A stretch of DNA of 64,000 nucleotides from assembly GCA_022822725.1 (NCBI GenBank), contig JAJEAN010000007.1:626382-690381 (forward strand). The letters are read 5' to 3'. Of the stretch, positions 7,742 to 49,190 are shown in pieces. The position numbers and the translations under genes are program-made. The DNA is from Candidatus Latescibacterota bacterium (lineage in GTDB: Bacteria > JAAXHH01). The notes beneath the pieces are model-generated. The model worked only from the letters and a program-made list of their open reading frames with translations. It made no database searches and was not told the origin of the DNA. Within the stretch, counting starts at the first letter, position 1. Every line of letters starts with the position of its first letter.

Positions 7742-8910
7742 GGCTTGGCTTCCATGGGCGTGACGAGCCTGCCGATGCCCTCGATCTCCATTTCCACTAT
7801 GTCGCCCGGCATGAGGTATTCGGGCGGATTCCGGGCGCGGCCTACACCGTCCGGCGTGCCCGTGGCGATCACGTCGCCCGGATAGAGGGTCTGGACCGAG
7901 GTCAGATACCGGATCATGTACGCTTCATTGTAGATCATGTAACTGGTGTTGCTGTCCTGCTTTATCACGCCGTTGACCCAGGTCTTTATGTCGAGGTCGT
8001 CATGCTGGATGAATTCCTTCGGCACGATGTAGGGCCCGAAGGGGGCGGCGCGGTCGCTGCTCTTGCCGTTGAACCAGTTCGGCCCGGGGAACATGCGGTT
8101 GATCGGTTTCAGTCCGTCGCCGCCCCGGCGGCTTACGTCGAACAGTATGCTGTAGCCGAATACATAGTCGTGGGCGTTCTCCAGGGTCAGGTCCAGCGCC
8201 GGCCTGCCGATGATGATGGCCAGTTCGGCTTCCCAGTCGATGTTCACGTCCTTCGGCACGTAGTAGGGTTCGCCCGGATCGATGATGGTGGATCTTGGCG
8301 ACTTGGCGAAGAAATAAGGTTCTTCGGCGTCCACGTCCACTTCCAGGGCGGTGAAACCCGCGCCCCCGATGGCCGATTCTTCCATCTCGTCCGCGTGGGC
8401 CCGGTAATTCGCAGCGGCCGCCAGCAGGTTGTAGGGGTACTTGATCGGCGCCTTGAAGGAGACGTTCTCCGGATCGAATACGAAGGCCAGGTCCGGGTTC
8501 GACAGGCGGTTTTCCGCGCCCATGTAGTTCGCTATCGTGTACATGCGGTTGGAAACGGCGTCGTACTGCTCGATCAGCGCACGCATTTCCTTCGGAATGG
8601 ATACCGTCGGCAATCCAAGCTGACGGGTGACGTAGGCATTCGCCTCGTGCAGGTCCATCAGTCTCTCCTGACCCGGTTGGCCCGTCTGGTCCGGTTGGCC
8701 CGTCCGGACCGGTTGGCCCGCCTGGTCCGGTTGGCCCGTCCGGACCGCCATGCCGATGCGGATGGTTCCCGTGGCCTCGAAGGTTGCCAGTTTGAAGGGC
8801 GTGTCCGGCTGGTCCGAAACCTGGGACCGGGCCGTGCCAGGTGCAGTCAGCCATAGTGCGGCGCCAATCAACAGGACGGCGGCCGGCAGAAATCGTATCC
8901 GGTACGACAT
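7738..8910 (-). CDS. Exported fumarylacetoacetate-hydrolase (FAH) family protein
   Basis: I start at the ATG at 8910 because a strong GAGGAGG lies about 9 bases upstream; this gives 390 residues. Residues 1-30 look like a cleavable signal peptide (MSYRIRFLPAAVLLIGAALW then TARSQ). The C-terminal half is a typical FAH domain: AEEPYFFAKSPRSTI, DWEAELAIIIGRPA, FGYSILFDVSRR and VIATGTPDGVG, a fold that hydrolyses or decarboxylates C-C bonds of 2,4-diketoacids using a divalent metal. Family members are normally cytoplasmic, so export is unusual. Residues about 56-82 are a Gly-Gln-Pro tandem repeat placed where a beta-hairpin turn is expected (RIGMAV before it, RLMDLHEAN after it). The gene overlaps the LVIVD lipoprotein gene by 4 bases. 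Confidence 0.87.
   Translation of the reverse strand: MSYRIRFLPAAVLLIGAALWLTAPGTARSQVSDQPDTPFKLATFEATGTIRIGMAVRTGQPDQAGQPVRTGQPDQTGQPGQERLMDLHEANAYVTRQLGLPTVSIPKEMRALIEQYDAVSNRMYTIANYMGAENRLSNPDLAFVFDPENVSFKAPIKYPYNLLAAAANYRAHADEMEESAIGGAGFTALEVDVDAEEPYFFAKSPRSTIIDPGEPYYVPKDVNIDWEAELAIIIGRPALDLTLENAHDYVFGYSILFDVSRRGGDGLKPINRMFPGPNWFNGKSSDRAAPFGPYIVPKEFIQHDDLDIKTWVNGVIKQDSNTSYMIYNEAYMIRYLTSVQTLYPGDVIATGTPDGVGRARNPPEYLMPGDIVEMEIEGIGRLVTPMEAKP
8673..8744. repeat. 18-bp in-frame tandem array inside the FAH gene
   Basis: Four consecutive 18-base units starting CCGGTTGGCCCG. The last six bases vary alternately (TCTGGT, TCCGGA, CCTGGT, TCCGGA), giving a 36-base higher-order period. Read on the minus strand they encode six-residue units such as GQPVRT and GQPDQA. 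The length preserves the reading frame. Confidence 0.95.
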
Positions 8911-11901: not shown

Positions 11902-12909
11902 TCAGCCGTCGATCCCGCAGTCATCCAGGTAACGGTCCACCGACGCCTTCAGCGGTAAATCTCCCCCCATCACCTGTTCTGCATAGTCGCGGTACCAGCC
12001 CGGAATCAGGGACCGGGCCTCACGGAATTCGGCGAGGATGAGCCTTGCGAAGTCCCCGCTGTCCTCCAGGTAGCCGGATTCGTAAAAGTGCGCGATCGCC
12101 CGTTCGCGGTCGTACTCGAGCCGGATGATCTCCGCTTTCCACGCACCGGATTCGAACGTCATCTGTGCGTAGGCTGCACGGGGATCCCGGTCGAATGGCG
12201 CGCCCACCGCGCCCACGTTGACGACAAGGGCATCGTCCACGGTCCGGATCAGGGGCCGGTGCGTGTGACCCACCACCAGCACCTTCGGCGCCGGTGCGAT
12301 TTTCTCGCGCAGCGCAGCTTCGGTATCATCGGGGAAGATCCCCTTGCGGTCTCCCAGCATGGAAGCGTGCACCATGCGGAATTCGTTCCCCGCCTCATCG
12401 GTCATGGACCACTGAAAGGGCAGCGCTTCGAGGCGTTCGACCAGCCCGTCCGGACTATCCGGGCTATCCGGACTATCCGGGCAGTCGGCGCTATCCATGC
12501 GGTCCGGGCTATCCGGGCTATCCGGGCAGCCGGCGCTATCCATGCGGTCCGGGCTATCCGGGCCGGCCTGACCAGTCCGGTCGGCCTGCCCGGCCTGGCC
12601 AGTCTGCCCGGCCAGTTGATCGTACGTCCACTTGGCATGCCGGATGATCTCGAATTCAGGACCGTGGTCGGGCAGGTTACCCTTTCCGTATTTCAGCACG
12701 TACCGCTCGTGGTTCCCACAGATCATGCCCCAGTCTTCCGCCATGGCACGACGCACAACCCGTTCGGTGCACGCCCGGGGATTCGGTCCCCGGTTGATGA
12801 TGTCGCCCGCGCACAGGACCCGGTCTGGTCGCCACCGGTCGATGTGGTCCAGGACGGTTTCCAATGCGTCCAGGTTGCTGTGCACGTCGGCGAAAACGGC
12901 GATCTTCAT
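11902..12909 (-). CDS. Calcineurin-like metallophosphoesterase with a repeat insertion
   Basis: A 335-residue YfcE/MJ0936-like phosphoesterase. Metal motifs are in order: FADVHSN, CAGDIINRGPNP, ICGNHERY and LVVGHTHRP, providing the Asp, His and Asn ligands of a dinuclear centre. Residues about 101-155 are a tandem Gly-Gln/Ser-Pro-Asp repeat that interrupts the fold between TYDQLAG and LVERLEALPFQW. Without it the length would be near 280, normal for the family with a C-terminal extension. Members hydrolyse phosphodiesters or nucleotides; the substrate is unknown. It starts 2 bases after the DMFase-like gene stops and probably shares its transcript. Confidence 0.9.
   Translation of the reverse strand: MKIAVFADVHSNLDALETVLDHIDRWRPDRVLCAGDIINRGPNPRACTERVVRRAMAEDWGMICGNHERYVLKYGKGNLPDHGPEFEIIRHAKWTYDQLAGQTGQAGQADRTGQAGPDSPDRMDSAGCPDSPDSPDRMDSADCPDSPDSPDSPDGLVERLEALPFQWSMTDEAGNEFRMVHASMLGDRKGIFPDDTEAALREKIAPAPKVLVVGHTHRPLIRTVDDALVVNVGAVGAPFDRDPRAAYAQMTFESGAWKAEIIRLEYDRERAIAHFYESGYLEDSGDFARLILAEFREARSLIPGWYRDYAEQVMGGDLPLKASVDRYLDDCGIDG
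12451..12612. repeat. 9-bp and 45-bp in-frame tandem array inside the metallophosphoesterase gene
   Basis: The basic word is CGGGCTATC (9 bases; Ser-Pro-Asp on the minus strand). Two near-identical 45-base units lie at 12460-12504 and 12505-12549, differing at two positions, with a third partial copy from 12550. The right part (12562-12612) shifts to a degenerate GGCCTG/GGCCAGTC pattern encoding Gly-Gln-Ala/Thr. The total keeps the reading frame. Confidence 0.95.
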
Positions 12910-19255: not shown

Positions 19256-20176
19256 TCACGCGGATTCTGCGCCCGTGGTTTCTGCGCCCTTGGATTCTGC
19301 GCCCGCGCTTTCCGCACCCGTGCTTTCCGCACCCGTGGTTTCCGCACCTGCGCATTCTACGCACGCCCGAAGCTTCGCCAGTCCTTTCTGTGCCGTGGCC
19401 ACCGGGCCTTCGGCCCAGTACGCGGGGTTGAACAGCTCCAGTGACAACATGCCCCGGTAATCCTGCCGTACCAGGCTGGCGACGATCTCGTCCCACGGCG
19501 CTACGCCGTCTCCGGGATAGACCCGGTGCTCGTCTTCGATGTCCGCGCGGGGCGGGTCGGAAGGATAGTCGTTCACGTGGACCAGGCCCAGGCGCCCCGG
19601 ATCGAGGTAGTCCATCCCGCGCTGGTGGCCGCTCCCCTTGTACATGTGAAAGATGTCGGTCAGCAGCCGGGTGTCGCGCACGCCGCTTTCCGCAGCCACG
19701 AGCAGGGCTTCTCCCACCGTGCCCAGCGTCCGGGACACGCCCCAGAACTCCAGCAGGGGTTTAGGGGTGTAATCCGACACGGCGTCCGTCAGTTCGGCGA
19801 ATCTCCGCGCGACGGAAAAAAGGTCTACATCCCGGTCGTGGATCCCCTTCGGGGCCGTGGCTACGAAAGGGCAATCCAGGACCTGCGCCATCCGGAAGCA
19901 ACGTCTGGCCTCTTCCAGGCCCCGGGCATGGCGGTCGGCTTCGGGAACCGCCCATTCGAAGAACGCGATCAGGTTCACGATCCGGATCCCGCGACGCGCG
20001 GCGCGGTCCCGCAACTGTTCCAGCGTCCCGCCGCCTTCGATCCAGGCATCGATCTCCTCGACCCAGGGTTCGATACCGTCATACCCGGCGTCGGCGGCGA
20101 TATCCACGTATTCCAGCACGGAAACGCCAGGTGAACGGATCGTGCTGGTGTTCAGGCAGTATTCAAATAGACCCAT
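19256..20176 (-). CDS. Sugar phosphate isomerase/epimerase-like TIM-barrel protein with repeat tail
   Basis: I choose the ATG at 20176 because AAGGGG lies 8 bases upstream (a GTG 9 bases earlier is possible). The 306-residue protein is an AP-endonuclease-2/xylose-isomerase-like barrel: YVDIAADAGYDGIEPWVEE, PLLEFWGV, RLLTDIFHMYKG, LGLVHVNDYPSDPP and YRGMLSLELFNPAYW. The Glu, Asp, His and Glu residues in these strands form the usual metal site. Members isomerise or epimerise sugars and inositols, with DUF6785 as a possible transporter neighbour downstream. The last 30 residues are six copies of a five-residue GAE(S/T)x unit after the conserved fold ends, probably a disordered tail. Confidence 0.9.
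   Translation of the reverse strand: MGLFEYCLNTSTIRSPGVSVLEYVDIAADAGYDGIEPWVEEIDAWIEGGGTLEQLRDRAARRGIRIVNLIAFFEWAVPEADRHARGLEEARRCFRMAQVLDCPFVATAPKGIHDRDVDLFSVARRFAELTDAVSDYTPKPLLEFWGVSRTLGTVGEALLVAAESGVRDTRLLTDIFHMYKGSGHQRGMDYLDPGRLGLVHVNDYPSDPPRADIEDEHRVYPGDGVAPWDEIVASLVRQDYRGMLSLELFNPAYWAEGPVATAQKGLAKLRACVECAGAETTGAESTGAESAGAESKGAETTGAESA
19259..19348. repeat. 15-bp in-frame tandem array at the 3' end of the TIM-barrel gene
   Basis: Six 15-base units immediately before the stop codon at 19256-19258. On the minus strand each reads GGx GCx GAA (A/T)CC/AGC xxG, encoding Gly-Ala-Glu-(Ser/Thr)-x. Units differ mainly at third positions and in the fifth codon. Confidence 0.95.
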
Positions 20177-29619: not shown

Positions 29620-32600
29620 TCAGCCGTGTTCCGTGGATTTCAGCTCCTCAAGCAACGTGTCGACCGTCAGACTGACGGCGGTCGCCGACTGCAACGTCTC
29701 GACCGGAACCGACACGTGCAGCCCCGTCTCGATCCAGTTTCTCAATTCCACGGCCATGAGGGAATCCACGCCCAGGCTGCGCCACGTCTGCACGAGATCC
29801 ACGCTCCCCGGATCCAACTCTACAATCCGGCAGATGGCATCGGTCACGAATTCCTCGATGTAGGCGCGAAGTTTGTCTGTAGGAAGCGCACTCGCATCGG
29901 ACTTCGATAACGGGGGAATCGACCGCGGTGCCAGCGTCTGATCACCGGGATTCGGCTCCAGCAAACGGACCAGAAGCGAATCCGCCGCAGGCGCCGTCGT
30001 GGGGATCACGCCCACGCGATGGATGTTGCGGCGCAATATCCGGTCAAGTGTCTCGCCGGCCGCGTCGGGCGGGATCAGCCGCAGTCCCTGCCGCCTGAGA
30101 CGATCGATGGCGCGCTCATCGGTCATCATCCCCGTACCTTCCCAGGGTCCCCAGTTGATCGTCGTCACAGGCAGGTTTTCTTTGCGCCGGAGATCCGCGA
30201 GTCCGTCAAGAAAGGCGTTCGCGGCGGCATAGGGCGCCTGTCCCGCCGTACCGATCACGGAAGCCGCCGACGAAAAGAGAACGAAGAGATCCAGATCCAG
30301 ATCCCTGGTCAATTCATGCAGATGCCACGCGCCGGTCGTTTTGGGTTCGAGTACCCGGCGGAACCGGCACGCGTCCTGAGTAATCAGAATGCCGTCGTCC
30401 AGCACGCCGGCCGCATGGAAGACGCCCCTAAACTGCGCATCCTCCCTGTCCAGATCCGAAAAGAGCCGCGCCATCGCCTCGTAATCCGCCACATCGGCCT
30501 GAACATACCTTACTTTGCCGGTGGGATCGGCATCAGGCACCGCCTCCTCGCTCTTCCGCCGGCCCGTAACGATTACCTGGCCGGCGCCGCGGTCGAGCAG
30601 CCAGTCCGTCAGATATCGACCGATCCCGCCCGTGCCGCCTGTGACGAGGTAGGTCTCATCCGGCCGGATGACCGGGTCGTCATCGCCCAGAGCCACTGGA
30701 ACGGTCGATCCGTCATCCACGAGCACCAGTTTGCCCGTATGCCGGGCCTGGGACATGAGCCGGAAGGCATCCCGCGCCTCGGCCATCGGATAGGTCCGGT
30801 GCGGCAGAGGACGGATCCTGCCATCCCGGGCCATGTCGACGATCTTACGCAGCAAGTTTCCTGCGCGATCAGGCTGTTCCGCGATGAACTGGGCGAGATC
30901 GATGGGATGAAAGGATCGATTGTGATCGAACTGGTTAAGGTCGATGAGACCGTGGTTCAACACATCGGTTTTGCCGATCTCGATGAAACGCCCGTGGCTT
31001 GCGAGCACGGACAGCGAAGCCGTCATGGCGGGCCCGGACAGCGTGTTGAGGACGATATCCATTCCCTTCCCATCCGTCTTCGCCAGGATCTTTTCTGCAA
31101 AGTCCAGCGTGCGGGAATCCATTACGTGAGCCACACCCATCTCCCGCAGTAAGGCCCGCTTTTCGGGTGATCCCGCCGTCGCGAATATCTCGGCTTCCAC
31201 GTTCAGTGCAAGTTGCAGGGCGGCCAGGCCCACACCGCCGGTCGCGTTATGGATCAGGACGCGGTCCCCAGTGGACATCCCACCCCGTACCACGAGACCC
31301 AGGTATGCCGTCAGGAAGGCCACAGGCAGCGTGGCGGCTTCTTCGATACCCAGGTGATCCGGCTTCTGGACCACCAGGGCGGCCTTCGCGGTCACGCAAC
31401 CCGCCATGGTTGCAGACATCATGCCCATGATCGTATCGCCAATTTCTATCGAGTTCACCTTGTCGCCCCGCGCCGTGACTTCTCCCACACATTCCCAGCC
31501 AAAGGACGGCGGACGCCTCGACGGGTCTCCCAGCATGCCGAGGGCGGTCAGCACATCCCGGAAATTCAATCCTGCCGCCCGCACGCGGATGGCCACCTCA
31601 TCCGGTGCCGGCTGAGGCACCTGTTCCGATACAAAATGGAGATTGTCGATCGAACCCGGCACGGACTGAGAGAGCCTGTAACTTGTTTTGGCATCGGCAG
31701 TTACGGGTACGGTTTTCGCTTCGCATCGCCCCAGGTCGAAGGGAACGAGACGGCGAACGTGGAGGTCAGTTCCCCGTAGCGAGATTTCACCAGGAAGCGT
31801 GTCCATGGCCACGATCGCAGCGAGTCGTTCTACATTGATGTCGGCTATCTCGCCGCTTCTGGCTGTCTCACCGGTCCTCGCCGTCTCACCGGTCCCGGCC
31901 GTCTCACCGATCCCGAGCGTCTCGCCGATCCCGGCCGTCTCGCCGCTTTCGGCCGTCGCGTAGTTTCCGGCCGTCTCGCCGCTTTCGGCAGGAAGGTCTA
32001 TCAATGTGCAGTCGAGTTCAGGATGTTCGCGCATGGCGACTCGTCCGCATCCCCAGATCGTCGCCAGTTCAGGTATCGCCCCGTCACCCGCGACCACAGA
32101 CTGCGCTCCCGCTGTAATCAATCTCAGTCGGCACGGAATCTCCGGACAGTCCAGCACCGCCCGGATCAGCTCAAAGGACTCCAGTGCTGGTCCCGTATGG
32201 CGGCCGGACTTCCGGTTGTCTGCTCCCGTCCAGATACCTGCGACAGCAACTAAATCTCCGGCAGCGGGTTCAACCGATCTCAGTCTTTCGAGGAGCAGAT
32301 CAGTCGCGGGCGACTTGTGATCGCCGGCGTGGTCGATGAATTCACTTTTTCCACCGTGTTGTGACAAGGCATCGACCAGACCGCCGCCGAGTCGTTTGTC
32401 GTCCGAGAGCACGAACCAGTGGGAAATTGTAGTGGGTTCAGCGTGAGTCTCCGGAGATGGTGCGTTTACCCACGTTTCCCGGTACAGTCCGTGTGGGTTA
32501 TGGATGCCGTGCGTGCCCGTGCCTGCCCGACCCAGACCCGCGCCGGCCGGAGACAGGCCAACGCCTTCCAAGGCAACTACGGGAAGACCCGTTTCATCGA

Positions 32601-35600
32601 CGATGCATACGTCGGCCAGCAGGCCGCTGCGTTCTGACGCATCCCGCAACCTGGCATAGCCGACGAGGGCTTCATGCGGTCCCGGAAGCCTGTGCAGCAC
32701 TGTGTTTGCCACGCCCACCGGCAGATAAGGACCGTCATCTGGTACGAGCATGAGCAGGGCCTGCAGGCCGGCATCGAGCACACCGGGGTGCAGGCGGTAA
32801 GAGGCCTGGTCATCATCCCGGACGGCCAGGAAGGCCAGCGCCTCTCGATCGGAGTAAACGAGTTCGTCGATCCGGCGGAACGCAGGCCCGTACTGAAACC
32901 CCAGATCGGCCGCGCGTTCGTAGAACCGGCGGCTTGTGGTCCGGCGGTCGCAACGGGATCTGACGGCTTCCAGATCGACGCGTTCGGCCATCTCATCCAT
33001 GCGGGCACGTTCGGCTCGCAGGTTCAGCAGCCAGCCGGAACCCTTGTCTTGCGATTCCGACCTGGAGGACAGGATGAACCGGTTCTGCCTGCGTACGATC
33101 TGGACGAGATGTGCGCCGGTTTCGGGCAATAACAGCGGGTTCAGGAGTTTAAGATCCTTGAAAGCGACCGGAATGTCCCCCTCGTCGAACGTCTCGAAGA
33201 GCATTTCGATCTGGCCCGCAAGGGGCATGATCGTACGGTTCCGTATGGCGTGATCCGCCAGCATCGGGTGGGTGTCCAGGCCGATCGTCCTTTCCCACAC
33301 GGTGGTATCTGGGTCCACGGACGATTCTACGCCCCTGCCGATCAATGGGTGCGGGTACCGACCGCTCGATTGATCCGCCATCCCGTCCAGCCAGTACCGT
33401 TCCTTCTTCCAGGGATATGCCGGCAATGGGACGGGCGTGCGAGGTCGATCTGCCAGACGTTCCCAGCGAATACCATGGCCTTGGACGTAACATTTCGCCA
33501 CGGCTTCGAGCAGGACTTCCCGCGCTCCGTGATCGCGACGCAACGAGGCGAGCGAGTAGCCCATCCGGTTCAGATGCGCCAGGTTCTCGTAAATGGCCGT
33601 TGACAGCACGGGATGGGGACCGATCTGGAGGAAAAGCGGCGTTGCGCCATCGGGAATCTGCTTGAACGAATGCGCGAAAGTCCGATCGAAGCGGACCGGA
33701 CTCCGGATGTTGCGCCACCAGTGGTCCGCCGTTAATTCCGTCCCTGCCACCGGAGCGCCGGTGACCGTGGACAACAGTGGTACCCGGATCTTAACGGGCG
33801 ACAGATCAGCCAGAGCCGCCAGGAATTCGCCGCGGATACCGTCCATTTGGCCGCTATGATAGGCCATTTCCGTATGTAATTGCTGACAGAAGAGCTGCCG
33901 GCCATCCATCTCGGCCTGCAGCCGATCGATTTCCGCTGTCTCCCCGGATATGGTTACGGAAACCGGGCTATTGACCGCGGCGACTGCCAGGCGGTCTTCG
34001 AAGGGCTCGATGGCCTCTTCCGCATCTTCCGGCGACAGACCCACGGCCAGCATCTCTCCCTGGCCCTGCAATGCCTTCTGCAGCCTGCTGCGCGCCCAGA
34101 TAATGCGAACACCCTCATCCAGGGTGAGTACGCCCGCGACGCAGGCGCCGGTGATTTCTCCGACACTGTGGCCAATGACGTACCGCGGTTCAATACCGAT
34201 GGACTGCCACCAGGATGCCAGGGCCCATTGCAGCGCCATGTTGGCGGGTTGGGCGACTTCGACGTCGGTGATTCGCTCCCCGGTTATGCCGTCCATCGTC
34301 TTTTCTATAATCGACTCTCCGGAAACCTCTGAGAAAAGGCGGTCGAACTCATCCAGCGCCTCGCGAAAAACCGGCTCGTCGTGATACAGTTCCTGGCCCA
34401 TGCCGTACCACTGGGGTCCCATTCCGGTGAAGACAAAGACAACGGGCGCTTGTTCCGCATCGGCCCGCGCAGTCTCGAACCGCTCGGGGAGGCCGCCGCC
34501 GCTGAACTGTTCAAGGCCCTCGGCGGCTTCCCCGGTCTGCCCGAAGACCAGTGCCAGGCGGTGATCGAGATGGGAACGCTGCAGGGCGAGTGCGGACGCA
34601 AGATCGCCGGGAGGCGTGCCGGGGCGGTCACGGAGCAGCGAAGCCGTATCCGATGCCTTTTGGTTCAGAGCGGCGGCGCTGTGGGCGGATAGGACCAGAA
34701 GTTGGGGAGTCCGCTGGGTGGTCACTTCGCGCTGGGCGGTCACTTCGCGCTGGTCGGATGCACTACGCTGACCAGATGCACTGCGCTGACCGGATACACT
34801 GCGCTGCCGGGACGCACCGCGTGAGCTGTGCTCTTCGGCTTCGACCGGGTCGCGATCTGTTCGTGCGCCCGCGGTATACCCGACGGATTCAGCGTCTGGC
34901 GGCGATCCAAGCACGACGTGGGCGTTGGCGCCGCCGAATCCGAAGGAATTCACGCCGGCAAGGGCGGGACCTGGAATGCTGACCGGCTCGGTGGCCACCG
35001 TCAGCCCAAGCGCTTCGAAGGGAATGTCGGGGTTCGGTTGATTGAAGTGCAGGGAGGGCGGCAGGATGCCGTGTTTGAGCGCCAGCGCCGTCTTGATGAG
35101 CCCGGCGACGCCGGCCGCCGCCTCGGTGTGGCCGATATTGGTCTTCACCGAGCCGATCATGCAACCGGTTGCGCCCGTGCCGCGCGTGGCCCGTCCGATG
35201 GCCATCGCTTCAATGGGATCACCCGTGGGCGTTCCCGTTCCATGGGCTTCCACGAAGGCGAGTTGAGCGGCGCTTACGCCCCCGGCGCCGGCCGCCGCCT
35301 CGATGACGGCTTCCTGTGCGCTTTGTCCCGGGACCGTCAAACCTCGGCTGCGCCCGTCCTGGTTAATCGCGGATCCGTGGATGGCCGCGTAGATCGCATC
35401 GCCGTCATCCACCGCTTCGGATAGCCGTTTCAGCACGACGATGCCCGCGCCGTCACTGCGGCCGTAACCGTTCGCCCCCAGGTCGAAGGCCCTGCAGCGC
35501 CCGTCCGGCGACAGCATCCGTGCTTGCTCGAATCCGCGCGTCGTCTGGGGCGTCAGAAGCAGATTGGCGCCACCGGCGAGTGCGGCCGTGCACGTCCCGG

Positions 35601-36159
35601 CCTGGATATCACGGCAGGCCAGGTGTATGGCGGTCAGGGACGAGGAACAGGCCGTGTCCACCGCGATGCTCGGACCCTTCAGATCCAGGAAGTAGGAAAT
35701 GCGGTTGGCCGCGACGCTCAGCGTCCCGCCCGTGTTAGTGTGCATGCCGACCTGCGAAGGCGCCGCATACCGCTGCAGGTCCCAGTATTCGTCCAGGAAG
35801 ATCCCCATGTAAACCCCGACGGGCCGGCCTTCCAGCCTTACCGGGAGGATCCGCGCGTCTTCCAGCGCTTCCCACGCGAGTTCGAGCAGGATGCGCTGCT
35901 GGGGATCGATGTGACGGGCCTCCCGTGGAGAGATGTTGAAGAACGCCGCGTCGAACCGATCGATTTCGTCGACGAAACCGCCCAATTCGGGAAAGGCTCC
36001 GCCGTCCGCCCACGGTTTCCACAGCGATTTCCGTTCATCCGGTACCGGACGAATGGCGTCTCCGCCGTTCAGGACGAATTCCCAGAAAGACTGCGGCGTC
36101 GATATCTTCCCGGGAAACCGGCAGGCGATGCCGATAATGGCAATGGGTTCACCGGACAT
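29620..36159 (-). CDS. Iterative type I polyketide synthase (KS-AT-DH-ER-KR-ACP)
   Basis: A 2179-residue single-module, fully reducing synthase. KS: DTACSSS (Cys171), EAHGTGT (His306), NIGHTEAAAG (His344). AT: GHSVGE (Ser665). DH: His970 in DHAIRNRTIMP, where Asn replaces the usual Gly, and Asp1129 in VLDAGLQ. About 1210-1500: a linker and structural subdomain. ER: LIHNATGGVGLAALQ near 1635. KR: VTGGTGGIGRYL near 1839, with catalytic Tyr1977 in APYAAANAF. ACP: LGVDSLMAVEL, phosphopantetheine Ser2133. No thioesterase is present. The order resembles mycocerosic-acid-synthase-like enzymes that make saturated, possibly branched, acyl chains. Its start overlaps lipM by 11 bases, at the end of the fatty acid synthesis operon. 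Two 18-bp repeat arrays lie in interdomain regions. Confidence 0.95.
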   Translation of the reverse strand: MSGEPIAIIGIACRFPGKISTPQSFWEFVLNGGDAIRPVPDERKSLWKPWADGGAFPELGGFVDEIDRFDAAFFNISPREARHIDPQQRILLELAWEALEDARILPVRLEGRPVGVYMGIFLDEYWDLQRYAAPSQVGMHTNTGGTLSVAANRISYFLDLKGPSIAVDTACSSSLTAIHLACRDIQAGTCTAALAGGANLLLTPQTTRGFEQARMLSPDGRCRAFDLGANGYGRSDGAGIVVLKRLSEAVDDGDAIYAAIHGSAINQDGRSRGLTVPGQSAQEAVIEAAAGAGGVSAAQLAFVEAHGTGTPTGDPIEAMAIGRATRGTGATGCMIGSVKTNIGHTEAAAGVAGLIKTALALKHGILPPSLHFNQPNPDIPFEALGLTVATEPVSIPGPALAGVNSFGFGGANAHVVLGSPPDAESVGYTAGARTDRDPVEAEEHSSRGASRQRSVSGQRSASGQRSASDQREVTAQREVTTQRTPQLLVLSAHSAAALNQKASDTASLLRDRPGTPPGDLASALALQRSHLDHRLALVFGQTGEAAEGLEQFSGGGLPERFETARADAEQAPVVFVFTGMGPQWYGMGQELYHDEPVFREALDEFDRLFSEVSGESIIEKTMDGITGERITDVEVAQPANMALQWALASWWQSIGIEPRYVIGHSVGEITGACVAGVLTLDEGVRIIWARSRLQKALQGQGEMLAVGLSPEDAEEAIEPFEDRLAVAAVNSPVSVTISGETAEIDRLQAEMDGRQLFCQQLHTEMAYHSGQMDGIRGEFLAALADLSPVKIRVPLLSTVTGAPVAGTELTADHWWRNIRSPVRFDRTFAHSFKQIPDGATPLFLQIGPHPVLSTAIYENLAHLNRMGYSLASLRRDHGAREVLLEAVAKCYVQGHGIRWERLADRPRTPVPLPAYPWKKERYWLDGMADQSSGRYPHPLIGRGVESSVDPDTTVWERTIGLDTHPMLADHAIRNRTIMPLAGQIEMLFETFDEGDIPVAFKDLKLLNPLLLPETGAHLVQIVRRQNRFILSSRSESQDKGSGWLLNLRAERARMDEMAERVDLEAVRSRCDRRTTSRRFYERAADLGFQYGPAFRRIDELVYSDREALAFLAVRDDDQASYRLHPGVLDAGLQALLMLVPDDGPYLPVGVANTVLHRLPGPHEALVGYARLRDASERSGLLADVCIVDETGLPVVALEGVGLSPAGAGLGRAGTGTHGIHNPHGLYRETWVNAPSPETHAEPTTISHWFVLSDDKRLGGGLVDALSQHGGKSEFIDHAGDHKSPATDLLLERLRSVEPAAGDLVAVAGIWTGADNRKSGRHTGPALESFELIRAVLDCPEIPCRLRLITAGAQSVVAGDGAIPELATIWGCGRVAMREHPELDCTLIDLPAESGETAGNYATAESGETAGIGETLGIGETAGTGETARTGETARSGEIADINVERLAAIVAMDTLPGEISLRGTDLHVRRLVPFDLGRCEAKTVPVTADAKTSYRLSQSVPGSIDNLHFVSEQVPQPAPDEVAIRVRAAGLNFRDVLTALGMLGDPSRRPPSFGWECVGEVTARGDKVNSIEIGDTIMGMMSATMAGCVTAKAALVVQKPDHLGIEEAATLPVAFLTAYLGLVVRGGMSTGDRVLIHNATGGVGLAALQLALNVEAEIFATAGSPEKRALLREMGVAHVMDSRTLDFAEKILAKTDGKGMDIVLNTLSGPAMTASLSVLASHGRFIEIGKTDVLNHGLIDLNQFDHNRSFHPIDLAQFIAEQPDRAGNLLRKIVDMARDGRIRPLPHRTYPMAEARDAFRLMSQARHTGKLVLVDDGSTVPVALGDDDPVIRPDETYLVTGGTGGIGRYLTDWLLDRGAGQVIVTGRRKSEEAVPDADPTGKVRYVQADVADYEAMARLFSDLDREDAQFRGVFHAAGVLDDGILITQDACRFRRVLEPKTTGAWHLHELTRDLDLDLFVLFSSAASVIGTAGQAPYAAANAFLDGLADLRRKENLPVTTINWGPWEGTGMMTDERAIDRLRRQGLRLIPPDAAGETLDRILRRNIHRVGVIPTTAPAADSLLVRLLEPNPGDQTLAPRSIPPLSKSDASALPTDKLRAYIEEFVTDAICRIVELDPGSVDLVQTWRSLGVDSLMAVELRNWIETGLHVSVPVETLQSATAVSLTVDTLLEELKSTEHG
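31849..31990. repeat. 18-bp in-frame array in the PKS region before ER
   Basis: Eight 18-base units (type CTCGCCGATCCCGGCCGT), the last shortened to 16 bases. They encode six-residue units such as ESGETA, GIGETA and GTGETA at residues about 1391-1438, in the structural subdomain before the enoylreductase. Confidence 0.95.
34712..34819. repeat. 18-bp in-frame array in the PKS KS-AT linker
   Basis: Six 18-base units beginning CGCTG, encoding six-residue units such as SGQRSA and TAQREV at residues about 447-482. They fall exactly between the KS domain (ending near 420) and the start of the AT domain linker. Confidence 0.95.
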
Positions 36160-37066
36160 GGCTCGCGGTCCTTCGATAGGTCCAGTGGGCGTTTGCGTAC
36201 CGGGTGCGGACCAACGACTCGGCTGCGCGCCGCTCGTCGGCGTCCAGCACGTCCGTTCGGCCTTCCACGTTCAGGCGATCAAGCATCGAACGGGTCAGGC
36301 GGTCGGTCCATTCCTCGAAGGATGGCAGATCGGGGATCAATTCGGCAACGGAGACAGTCCGCTGGTCCAGCAGCCGGGCGATGGTCTCCCGGCGTTCCGG
36401 ATCACGGGCGGGCATCAGCAGGGGGAGCCGGCGGTGTCCCGGTCCCAGAAGCAGGGATCCATGTTGCAGCACAACCCCGCGGGAGCGGCGCTGGGCGCTG
36501 CCGGCCAGCTTCCTGCCGCCCGCAGTGATCTCGTAACGTCCGATGGCCGTGAAGCATACGTCGTCATTGTTTCCCGCGCCGCAATGTGCTTCCAACGACA
36601 TCTCGGCCGGTATACCGAATTGCTTCAGCGTTTCGACCAGTGCTTCGCTCACCGCGCGGAGCATCACGCCGGAACGGCTGCCCAGCGCGGGATGGGATTC
36701 CGGCGCCACCAGGCTGTAGGCTAATTCCTGGTCGTGCAGCACCGCGCGCCCCCCGGTGATCCGACGGACCAGTTCGATGCCGTAACGTTCGCATTGGCCG
36801 GGATCGATCTCGCTGTCCAACTGCTGCCCGTATCCGATGGACACAGCGGGCGGGCGCCACGAATAGATGCGCAGCGTCATCATCTCCGCATCCCGCCGGC
36901 TCGCGTCCCGCCGACCCGCATCCCGCCGGCTCGCGTCCCGCCGACCTGCATCACGTCGGCTCCTGTCCCGTCGGCTCCCGTTCCGCCGGCAAGCGTCCAG
37001 CAGCGCTTCGTCCACGGCCATGTTGTACGCGGCGGAACATCCGGGCGTGGAAAGTACGCGAATCAT
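36149..37066 (-). CDS. Lipoate/octanoyl transferase-family protein, LipM-like
   Basis: A 305-residue protein of the biotin/lipoyl ligase fold. The N-terminal AAYNMAVDEALLDA is interrupted by a 35-residue Arg-Arg-Asp-Ala-Ser repeat (about 27-61), after which the conserved LRIYSWRPPAVSIGYGQ resumes. RRITGGRAVLHDQELAYSLV and VCFTAIGRYEITAGGRKLAGSAQRR follow; Cys171 and Lys186 match the positions used by LipM octanoyltransferases, which transfer octanoate from acyl-ACP to lipoyl domains. Lipoate-protein ligase is the alternative. Its start overlaps the rnc stop by 4 bases, and its end overlaps the PKS start by 11, so the three genes are translationally linked. Confidence 0.85.
   Translation of the reverse strand: MIRVLSTPGCSAAYNMAVDEALLDACRRNGSRRDRSRRDAGRRDASRRDAGRRDASRRDAEMMTLRIYSWRPPAVSIGYGQQLDSEIDPGQCERYGIELVRRITGGRAVLHDQELAYSLVAPESHPALGSRSGVMLRAVSEALVETLKQFGIPAEMSLEAHCGAGNNDDVCFTAIGRYEITAGGRKLAGSAQRRSRGVVLQHGSLLLGPGHRRLPLLMPARDPERRETIARLLDQRTVSVAELIPDLPSFEEWTDRLTRSMLDRLNVEGRTDVLDADERRAAESLVRTRYANAHWTYRRTASHVR
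36891..36995. repeat. 15-bp in-frame array near the 5' end of lipM-like gene
   Basis: Seven 15-base units (TCCCGCCGGCTCGCG / TCCCGCCGACCCGCA and variants). The first four alternate, giving a 30-base higher-order period. On the minus strand they encode Arg-Arg-Asp-Ala-(Ser/Gly). Confidence 0.95.
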
Positions 37067-48774: not shown

Positions 48775-48796
48775 GCGAGCTACCTTTGATCGTATT

Positions 48797-48881
48797 CGGA
48801 CCGGATGACTGGATACGGACCGGATAACCGGTTTCGGACCGGTTGATCGAATTCGGACCGGTTGACCGGATTCGGACCGGA
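48797..48881. repeat. 19-bp tandem array in the leader of the binding-protein gene
   Basis: Four 19-base units each beginning CGGACCGG (48797, 48816, 48835, 48854) plus a partial fifth at 48873. They start 22 bases upstream of the start codon. The unit is not a multiple of 3. Confidence 0.93.
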
Positions 48882-48999
48882 CATCGAGACACTGGCGCCG
48901 CGATGGGTTAAAGGAACGGCTACGCGGCAGCTTGCGTGCTCGAACTATGCCGGATATGCGGTTTTGCGTGTTTCCTGTAAAATGACCACCTGCCCTTGC

Positions 49000-49062
49000 C
49001 CGGGTCAATAGAAAAGCGCAGGGCGGTCAGGCCGGGTCAATAGAAAAGCGCAGGGCGGTCAG
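49000..49062. repeat. 32-bp tandem duplication in the divergent promoter region
   Basis: A 31-base word starting CCGGGTCAATAGAAAAGCGC occurs at 49000 and 49032 without differences. On the minus strand each copy contains TATTGACC, a possible -35 element. Confidence 0.92.
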
Positions 49063-49072
49063 ACCGCGTCTC

Positions 49073-49101: not shown

Positions 49102-49145
49102 AGTGGCGATCCCTCCCGCTCACGCAAGCCATTGCTTGAACCACG

Positions 49146-49190
49146 CCAGGCAGTCCCGAGCCAGGCATTCCCGAGCCAGGCAGTCCAGAC
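49146..49190. repeat. 15-bp tandem repeat abutting the permease start codon
   Basis: Three 15-base units (CCAGGCAGTCCCGAG, CCAGGCATTCCCGAG, CCAGGCAGTCCAGAC) end one base before the ATG at 49192. They occupy the place where a ribosome binding site would be; no Shine-Dalgarno sequence is visible. Confidence 0.93.

Follow-up and report, generated by a model that had tools for sequence, protein, structure and literature searches.

A type I polyketide synthase (PKS) gene in Candidatus Latescibacterota bacterium carries two tandem arrays of 18-bp units, which are very probably young, lineage-specific coding minisatellites, probably grown by slippage and filtered for reading frame and position. The arrays, here called A and B, lie in a window of 64,000 nucleotides (assembly GCA_022822725.1, contig JAJEAN010000007.1, positions 626,382 to 690,381) from a genome denoted G000. 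The arrays themselves are ordinary, and the unusual part is the density of such arrays across the genus.

Two 18-bp arrays and their history

The frame of the host gene contains no internal stop across its translation (coordinates in Table 1). Pfam places array B in the KS-AT linker, between KAsynt_C_assoc (residues 375-425) and CurL-like_PKS_C (residues 486-549), and array A between DH, which ends at residue 1207, and ER, which starts at residue 1519. The stretch between DH and ER is psiKR, an assignment borne out by the predicted structure of the psiKR-ER-KR part, whose best fold match was the mycocerosic acid synthase (MAS)-like structure 5bp4 (TMq 0.65, 31 percent identity). By sequence, the best solved relative of the PKS is MAS itself (9d2z, E 6.1e-277).

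Array A encodes the peptide units PAESGE TAGNYA TAESGE TAGIGE TLGIGE TAGTGE TARTGE TARSGE, and array B the units SRQRSV SGQRSA SGQRSA SDQREV TAQREV TTQRTP. Tandem Repeats Finder (TRF) scored array A at 125 and array B at 87 and 78 in two overlapping rows, whereas the top score among 300 codon-shuffled versions of the PKS gene was 66 and the 95th percentile 50. The first-pass annotation had described two arrays of six and eight 18-bp units, unrelated to one another in sequence and avoiding the catalytic domains. The TRF scores confirmed that the arrays are real, comparison by eye agreed that the units are unrelated, and the Pfam positions bore out their placement.

AlphaFold2 models were built for residues 1-935, using an alignment of the window protein and 19 relatives, and for residues 1205-2060, using 14 relatives after omission of the five with partial coverage. 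The predicted local distance difference test score (pLDDT) fell below 50 at residues 424-482, the region of array B, and at residues 1394-1439, the latter preceded by a strand (residues 1385-1389) and followed by a helix (residues 1443-1450). Both arrays thus lie in loops predicted with low confidence and, since array A is flanked by a strand and a helix, the models place it as a loop insertion inside the psiKR subdomain, not in an interdomain linker.

The PKS gene was found in all 11 congeners searched, and the 12 genus members (G000 and 11 congeners) were aligned with three outgroups. The gene is split across two contigs in G001 and truncated by contig ends in G004 and G009; since these three are incomplete, length differences were tabulated for the nine complete genus genes, while both array sites were readable in all 12. 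The site of array A spans 45 residues in G000 compared to 0-4 in the other 11, so that array A is absent from every orthologue and expansion there occurred in G000 alone. A single recognisable copy of the array A core, GCC-GGG-ACC-GGC-GAG (15 bases), is present in each of the 11 orthologues, exact in three (G002, G007 and G010) and with 1-4 differences by eye in eight. The window from ~20.5 to 47.2 kb is syntenic with G002, G005, G007 and G008, and shorter parts of it with G003, G004 and G009, at a nucleotide identity of about 84-91 percent outside the PKS gene and about 74-85 percent inside. Nucleotide alignment breaks at array A in all seven relatives and at array B in four of the seven, with both flanks of array A aligning in 7/7 and synteny otherwise continuous. 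Among six relatives compared for stretch length (G009 was omitted as short), the array A stretch is 123-135 bp shorter in every one.

At the site of array B, the KS-AT linker (reference residues 415-500) measures 56-99 residues in the 12 genus members versus 33-34 in all three outgroups. Separate 33-bp duplications occur within this linker in G004 and G005. The duplication in G004 is unlike the array B unit, while that in G005 contains an SGQR segment resembling array B; QR-rich text also occurs in G002 and G008, and the closest relatives, G003 and G009, lack an array-B-like QR-rich segment. The SGQR and QR-rich text suggests that array B may derive from a segment that several relatives already possessed. 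The earlier proposal that linker length may change rapidly in this megasynthase is therefore supported, as regards change in length, for the KS-AT linker, where identical, fixed sequences were not seen among orthologues and two species have duplications of their own, and lacks support at the psiKR site, which is nearly constant in the 11 orthologues.

The history of the KS-AT linker could also reflect adaptation, with selection tuning the spacing of synthase parts and growth kept for its effect on product or ACP reach. The longer linker in every genus member fits this idea, as do the TRF-detectable duplications in three species (G000, G004 and G005) and the recurrence of SGQR and QR-rich text, through which one segment may be reused. 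However, both linker text and repeat-unit length vary between species, and the genome-wide results described below make this explanation decidedly unlikely.

Array density and probable selection on frame and place

TRF detected 140 arrays in 484 kb of G000, or 28.9 per 100 kb, compared to 2 and 0 in two sets of Markov shuffles. With coding status assigned by a simple hexamer-based gene caller, 62 arrays were coding, 62 non-coding and 16 mixed, giving 14.8 per 100 kb in coding sequence versus 120 per 100 kb in the rest. The commonest coding period was 18 bp (22 of 62), and the median unit identity in G000 arrays was 86 percent. At these rates a gene the size of the PKS is expected to hold 0.97 arrays, with a probability of 0.25 for two or more and of 0.17 for two coding arrays having the same period. 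Since 18 bp is the commonest in-frame size and arrays are dense genome-wide, no special cause is required for a 6.5-kb gene to contain two arrays of 18-bp units.

All 12 genus genomes contain arrays, at 10 to 34 per 100 kb in the 11 others (samples of 33-160 kb). The suggestion that length change is a property of this megasynthase is therefore not supported, as similar arrays are found throughout the genome sample and the genus. The highest densities were in G000 and G005, the genomes with fewest contigs, so part of the spread may reflect assembly. For units of at least 9 bp, the 28.9 per 100 kb in G000 compares to 0.9 in G012 and G013, one genome from each of two sister genera, 11.4 and 1.5 in the order-mates G014 and G015, and 4.3 in three far genomes together. 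Units of 7-8 bp made up 9/10 arrays in G013 and 20/35 in G014; in the latter, AAAATCC occurs as a unit class 7 times and ACGAGTG 5 times. TRF found one array in 50 kb of a Rhizobium plasmid (guanine-plus-cytosine (GC) content 0.60) and one in an equal length of E. coli K-12; comparison with bacteria at large is based on few controls. Exact adjacent duplications of 10-60 bp in coding sequence numbered 39 in 1342 kb of the genus versus 2 in 568 kb of seven other genomes; outside genes the rates lay closer together, at roughly 28 per 100 kb for the genus and 19, 36, 0 and 11 for four other sets.

The period was divisible by 3 in 59/62 coding arrays of G000 compared to 30/78 non-coding or mixed arrays (Fisher P 4.6e-13), and among the exact duplications of the genus in 36/39 coding versus 18/46 others. 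Arrays also mostly avoided Pfam domains. The 62 coding arrays are spread over 48 genes, and among the 46 in genes with clear Pfam intervals, 39 lay mostly outside domains, where random placement expects 18.8 and none of 100,000 simulations reached as high a count; when five arrays with a split domain match are counted as inside domains, 39/51 lie outside. For example, ribosomal protein S6 has an array in its tail and nucleoside diphosphate kinase one at its N terminus, and in two 2-oxoacid dehydrogenase acyltransferases (E2; L079:2724-4121 and L076:11428-12789) arrays occupy the linkers that join the lipoyl, E3-binding and catalytic domains. Four arrays also lie within a UvrD-helicase/PDDEXK gene that precedes a PDDEXK gene (L061:8943-15231), the pair resembling AddAB.

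Adjacent units, pooled over arrays and with 1107 comparisons per codon position, differed at 0.210 of first, 0.211 of second and 0.220 of third positions. Between the PKS genes of G000 and G003 the corresponding fractions are 0.123, 0.109 and 0.288, with most of the difference at the third position. The equal differences between units suggest that selection acts on the frame and place of the arrays, and not on their peptides. This lack of codon-position bias runs counter to the adaptive explanation of the PKS linkers, as does the occurrence of the same pattern in housekeeping genes, among them those for ribosomal protein S6 and nucleoside diphosphate kinase.

Arrays that are numerous and turn over between species could alternatively be contingency loci, maintained to allow rapid and reversible variation like those of host-adapting bacteria. 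However, because nearly all coding arrays are in frame they cannot switch genes on and off; several sit in housekeeping enzymes, and the moderate unit identity suggests slow turnover, leaving this explanation very improbable. An assembly or binning artefact is more improbable still. The named public relatives come from metagenome assemblies, tandem repeats are known to cause assembly errors (PMC6868369), and assembly does affect the counts, which peak in the two genomes with fewest contigs. Against this, arrays were present in every sampled genus genome, coding arrays in G000 keep the frame, and array A is bounded by aligned flanks in every syntenic relative.

Proposed origin and the SbcCD lead

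The growth of both PKS arrays as coding minisatellites would begin from a lone copy of the unit, such as that found at the array A site in relatives. The unit would be copied through replication slippage or a comparable tandem duplication over short range and, once two copies were present, more would be gained or lost. Such duplication would act genome-wide on unrelated sequences, with units mostly about 9-30 bp in length. Within genes, as the frame and placement statistics show, arrays are retained almost exclusively where the unit length is divisible by 3 and, for the most part, where they lie outside folded domains. The array peptides would serve as flexible spacers, lengthening enzyme loops with little effect on catalysis.

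Other sources of the units were considered and rejected. A mobile or dispersed repeat family was rejected because comparison of 98 arrays having 14-30-bp units revealed no similar pair of units; as the control likewise gave 0, this comparison rules out clear families only. Hairpin-forming units were set aside since the signal was weak and not consistent: folding was a little better than that of doubled random units in 58 non-coding or mixed arrays (P 0.014) but no better in 40 coding arrays (P 0.97). Composition was likewise rejected, with a GC skew of 0.225 in arrays versus 0.227 in controls and a purine skew only slightly higher (0.218 versus 0.194).

Several points weigh against a slippage-grown, filtered minisatellite. 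First, the array A site is almost fixed in the 11 other species, and rapid change there is unsupported. Second, copying by slippage is a probable, inferred step, and copy-number change was seen between species only, with one genome per species. Third, the low pLDDT may arise partly from an insert that has no homologues in the alignment. Fourth, TRF is heuristic and strand-dependent and missed the known KS-AT duplication of G005 on the other strand, so the array counts are lower bounds. Fifth, seven of the 46 arrays in the domain test overlap Pfam domains, one of them in a hexapeptide-repeat protein, where the fold leads one to expect an 18-bp period; the test also omits 16/62 coding arrays (11 without a Pfam match and five with a split domain match). 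Lastly, when confined to the PKS arrays the codon-position comparison is too small for a verdict.

Repair genes were also surveyed. MutL, MutS and a Y-family polymerase were matched in 10/10 genus genomes searched, though the Y-family match was weak in G009 and the MutS match partial in G004, and XseA and RecJ were matched in 12/12. SbcD was above its family cut-off in none of the 12 genus genomes (G000-G011) versus both sister-genus genomes (G012 and G013), and was also above it in the order-mates G014 and G015. Nearly full-length SbcC matches were confined to the two sister-genus genomes among 14 searched; the curated SbcC cut-off is strict, being passed by none of the 14 and by one control genome only. 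It is conceivable, though we consider it unlikely, that the genus, by losing the SbcCD nuclease, gave up a control on short slipped or hairpin intermediates and that this triggered genome-wide minisatellite birth, with the PKS arrays as two readouts; in that case, in-frame arrays would now be lengthening the linkers and tails of housekeeping enzymes. Counting against it, G014 has SbcD yet carries 11.4 arrays per 100 kb (units of at least 9 bp), contig C39 of G006 holds an adjacent SbcD/SbcC-like pair, weak and below cut-off, and no SbcD match was found in the control Caulobacter or in the far genomes G016 and G019. A single loss in a single genus cannot establish cause, and the absence of SbcCD is a weakly supported lead, not a result.

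Neighbouring features and known systems

Table 1. Coordinates of the PKS gene, its arrays and other in-frame arrays within the window
Feature	Position	Strand	Basis
Host gene, type I PKS/fatty acid synthase (FAS), 2179 residues, KS-AT-DH-psiKR-ER-KR-ACP	29620..36159	-	Pfam, translation
Array A, eight 18-bp units, Gly-Glu-Thr type, residues 1390-1437, psiKR loop before ER	31849..31992	-	TRF, unit register
Array B, six 18-bp units, Gln-Arg-Ser type, residues 450-485, KS-AT linker	34705..34812	-	TRF, unit register
Third array, 15-bp units, N-terminal part of lipoate/biotin-ligase-like open reading frame (36149-37066)	36886..36998	-	TRF
In-frame array within FAA-hydrolase-like protein gene	8673-8747		
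In-frame array within metallophosphoesterase gene	12449-12563		
In-frame array within AP-endonuclease-2-like TIM-barrel protein gene	19262-19362		
In-frame array within amino acid permease gene	49145-49186		

The PKS gene is neighboured by ion-channel-, lipoate-ligase-, RNase III- and FabF-like genes. Within the ligase-like gene, the stretch with the third array is shorter in six relatives by 30, 60, 75 or 90 bp, equal to 2, 4, 5 or 6 whole units, and TRF also finds the 15-bp array in G002, G005 and G008. The gene caller started this gene at 36844, so the third array was tallied as non-coding. Over the seven syntenic sequences TRF found 26 arrays, with five positions common by eye to at least two genomes. 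Other genes of the window also hold in-frame arrays (Table 1), and two distinct arrays of 19-bp and 32-bp units, non-coding by the gene caller, lie between divergent genes at 48794-49070.

Relatives of the PKS were found at 22 public loci. The seven closest are 69-78 percent identical over the best segment and are all metagenome assemblies, labelled Latescibacterota (4) and Gemmatimonadetes (3), while the remainder are more distant and include Paenibacillus and Bacteroidota. Several of the close relatives are presumably sponge-derived, judging by isolate names. A plasmid search with the PKS gene returned 4 records with matches just 58-59 bases long. In a second KS-AT-bearing PKS gene of G000 (L074:5324-7213), the KS-AT linker contains, close to its end, a weak array of 18-bp units (2.5 copies, 74 percent match). 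Type I PKS clusters have been described in sponge-associated Latescibacterota (PMC12993501), a paper in which the word 'tandem' does not occur. Among the literature matches listed, no title or abstract opening described these arrays or array-rich Latescibacterota.

As an account of the PKS itself, the minisatellite explanation is ordinary. Its wider value is that in-frame arrays mark length-tolerant protein sites and so provide a naturally occurring map of loops that tolerate insertion, with PKSs and E2 acyltransferases as examples, and the genus offers a setting in which to seek a genetic cause of minisatellite growth.

The window PKS has the same domain order as MAS and MAS-like reducing PKSs, which are its best solved match in sequence and, for the psiKR-ER-KR part only, in fold. 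MAS-like PKSs use methylmalonyl units and make methyl-branched acids. The order KS-AT-DH-ER-KR-ACP is also that of SwfA, a mono-modular PKS/FAS of sponge symbionts with the KS motifs DPQ(I/V)R and HATGT (PMC3908369). Identity with SwfA was rejected, as the corresponding motifs of the window PKS are DPQQR and HGTGT. The SwfA operon has swfB (reductase-sulphotransferase) and often swfC (radical SAM). The comparison covered the direct neighbours of the window PKS, which are ion-channel-like and lipoate-ligase-like.

The six-residue period of the arrays is shared with hexapeptide and other structural protein repeats, but the PKS arrays lie in predicted low-confidence loops and their repeat is absent (array A) or different (array B) in orthologues. 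The closest likeness is to bacterial coding minisatellites, or variable-number tandem repeats, which have short in-frame units, differ in copy number between species, grow in place and occupy tolerant protein regions. Consistent with these, the PKS arrays consist of head-to-tail copies beyond chance, have a frame-keeping 18-bp unit and differ in copy number between species; what sets this system apart is its density, 28.9 per 100 kb in G000 versus 0.9 in sister-genus genomes for units of at least 9 bp.

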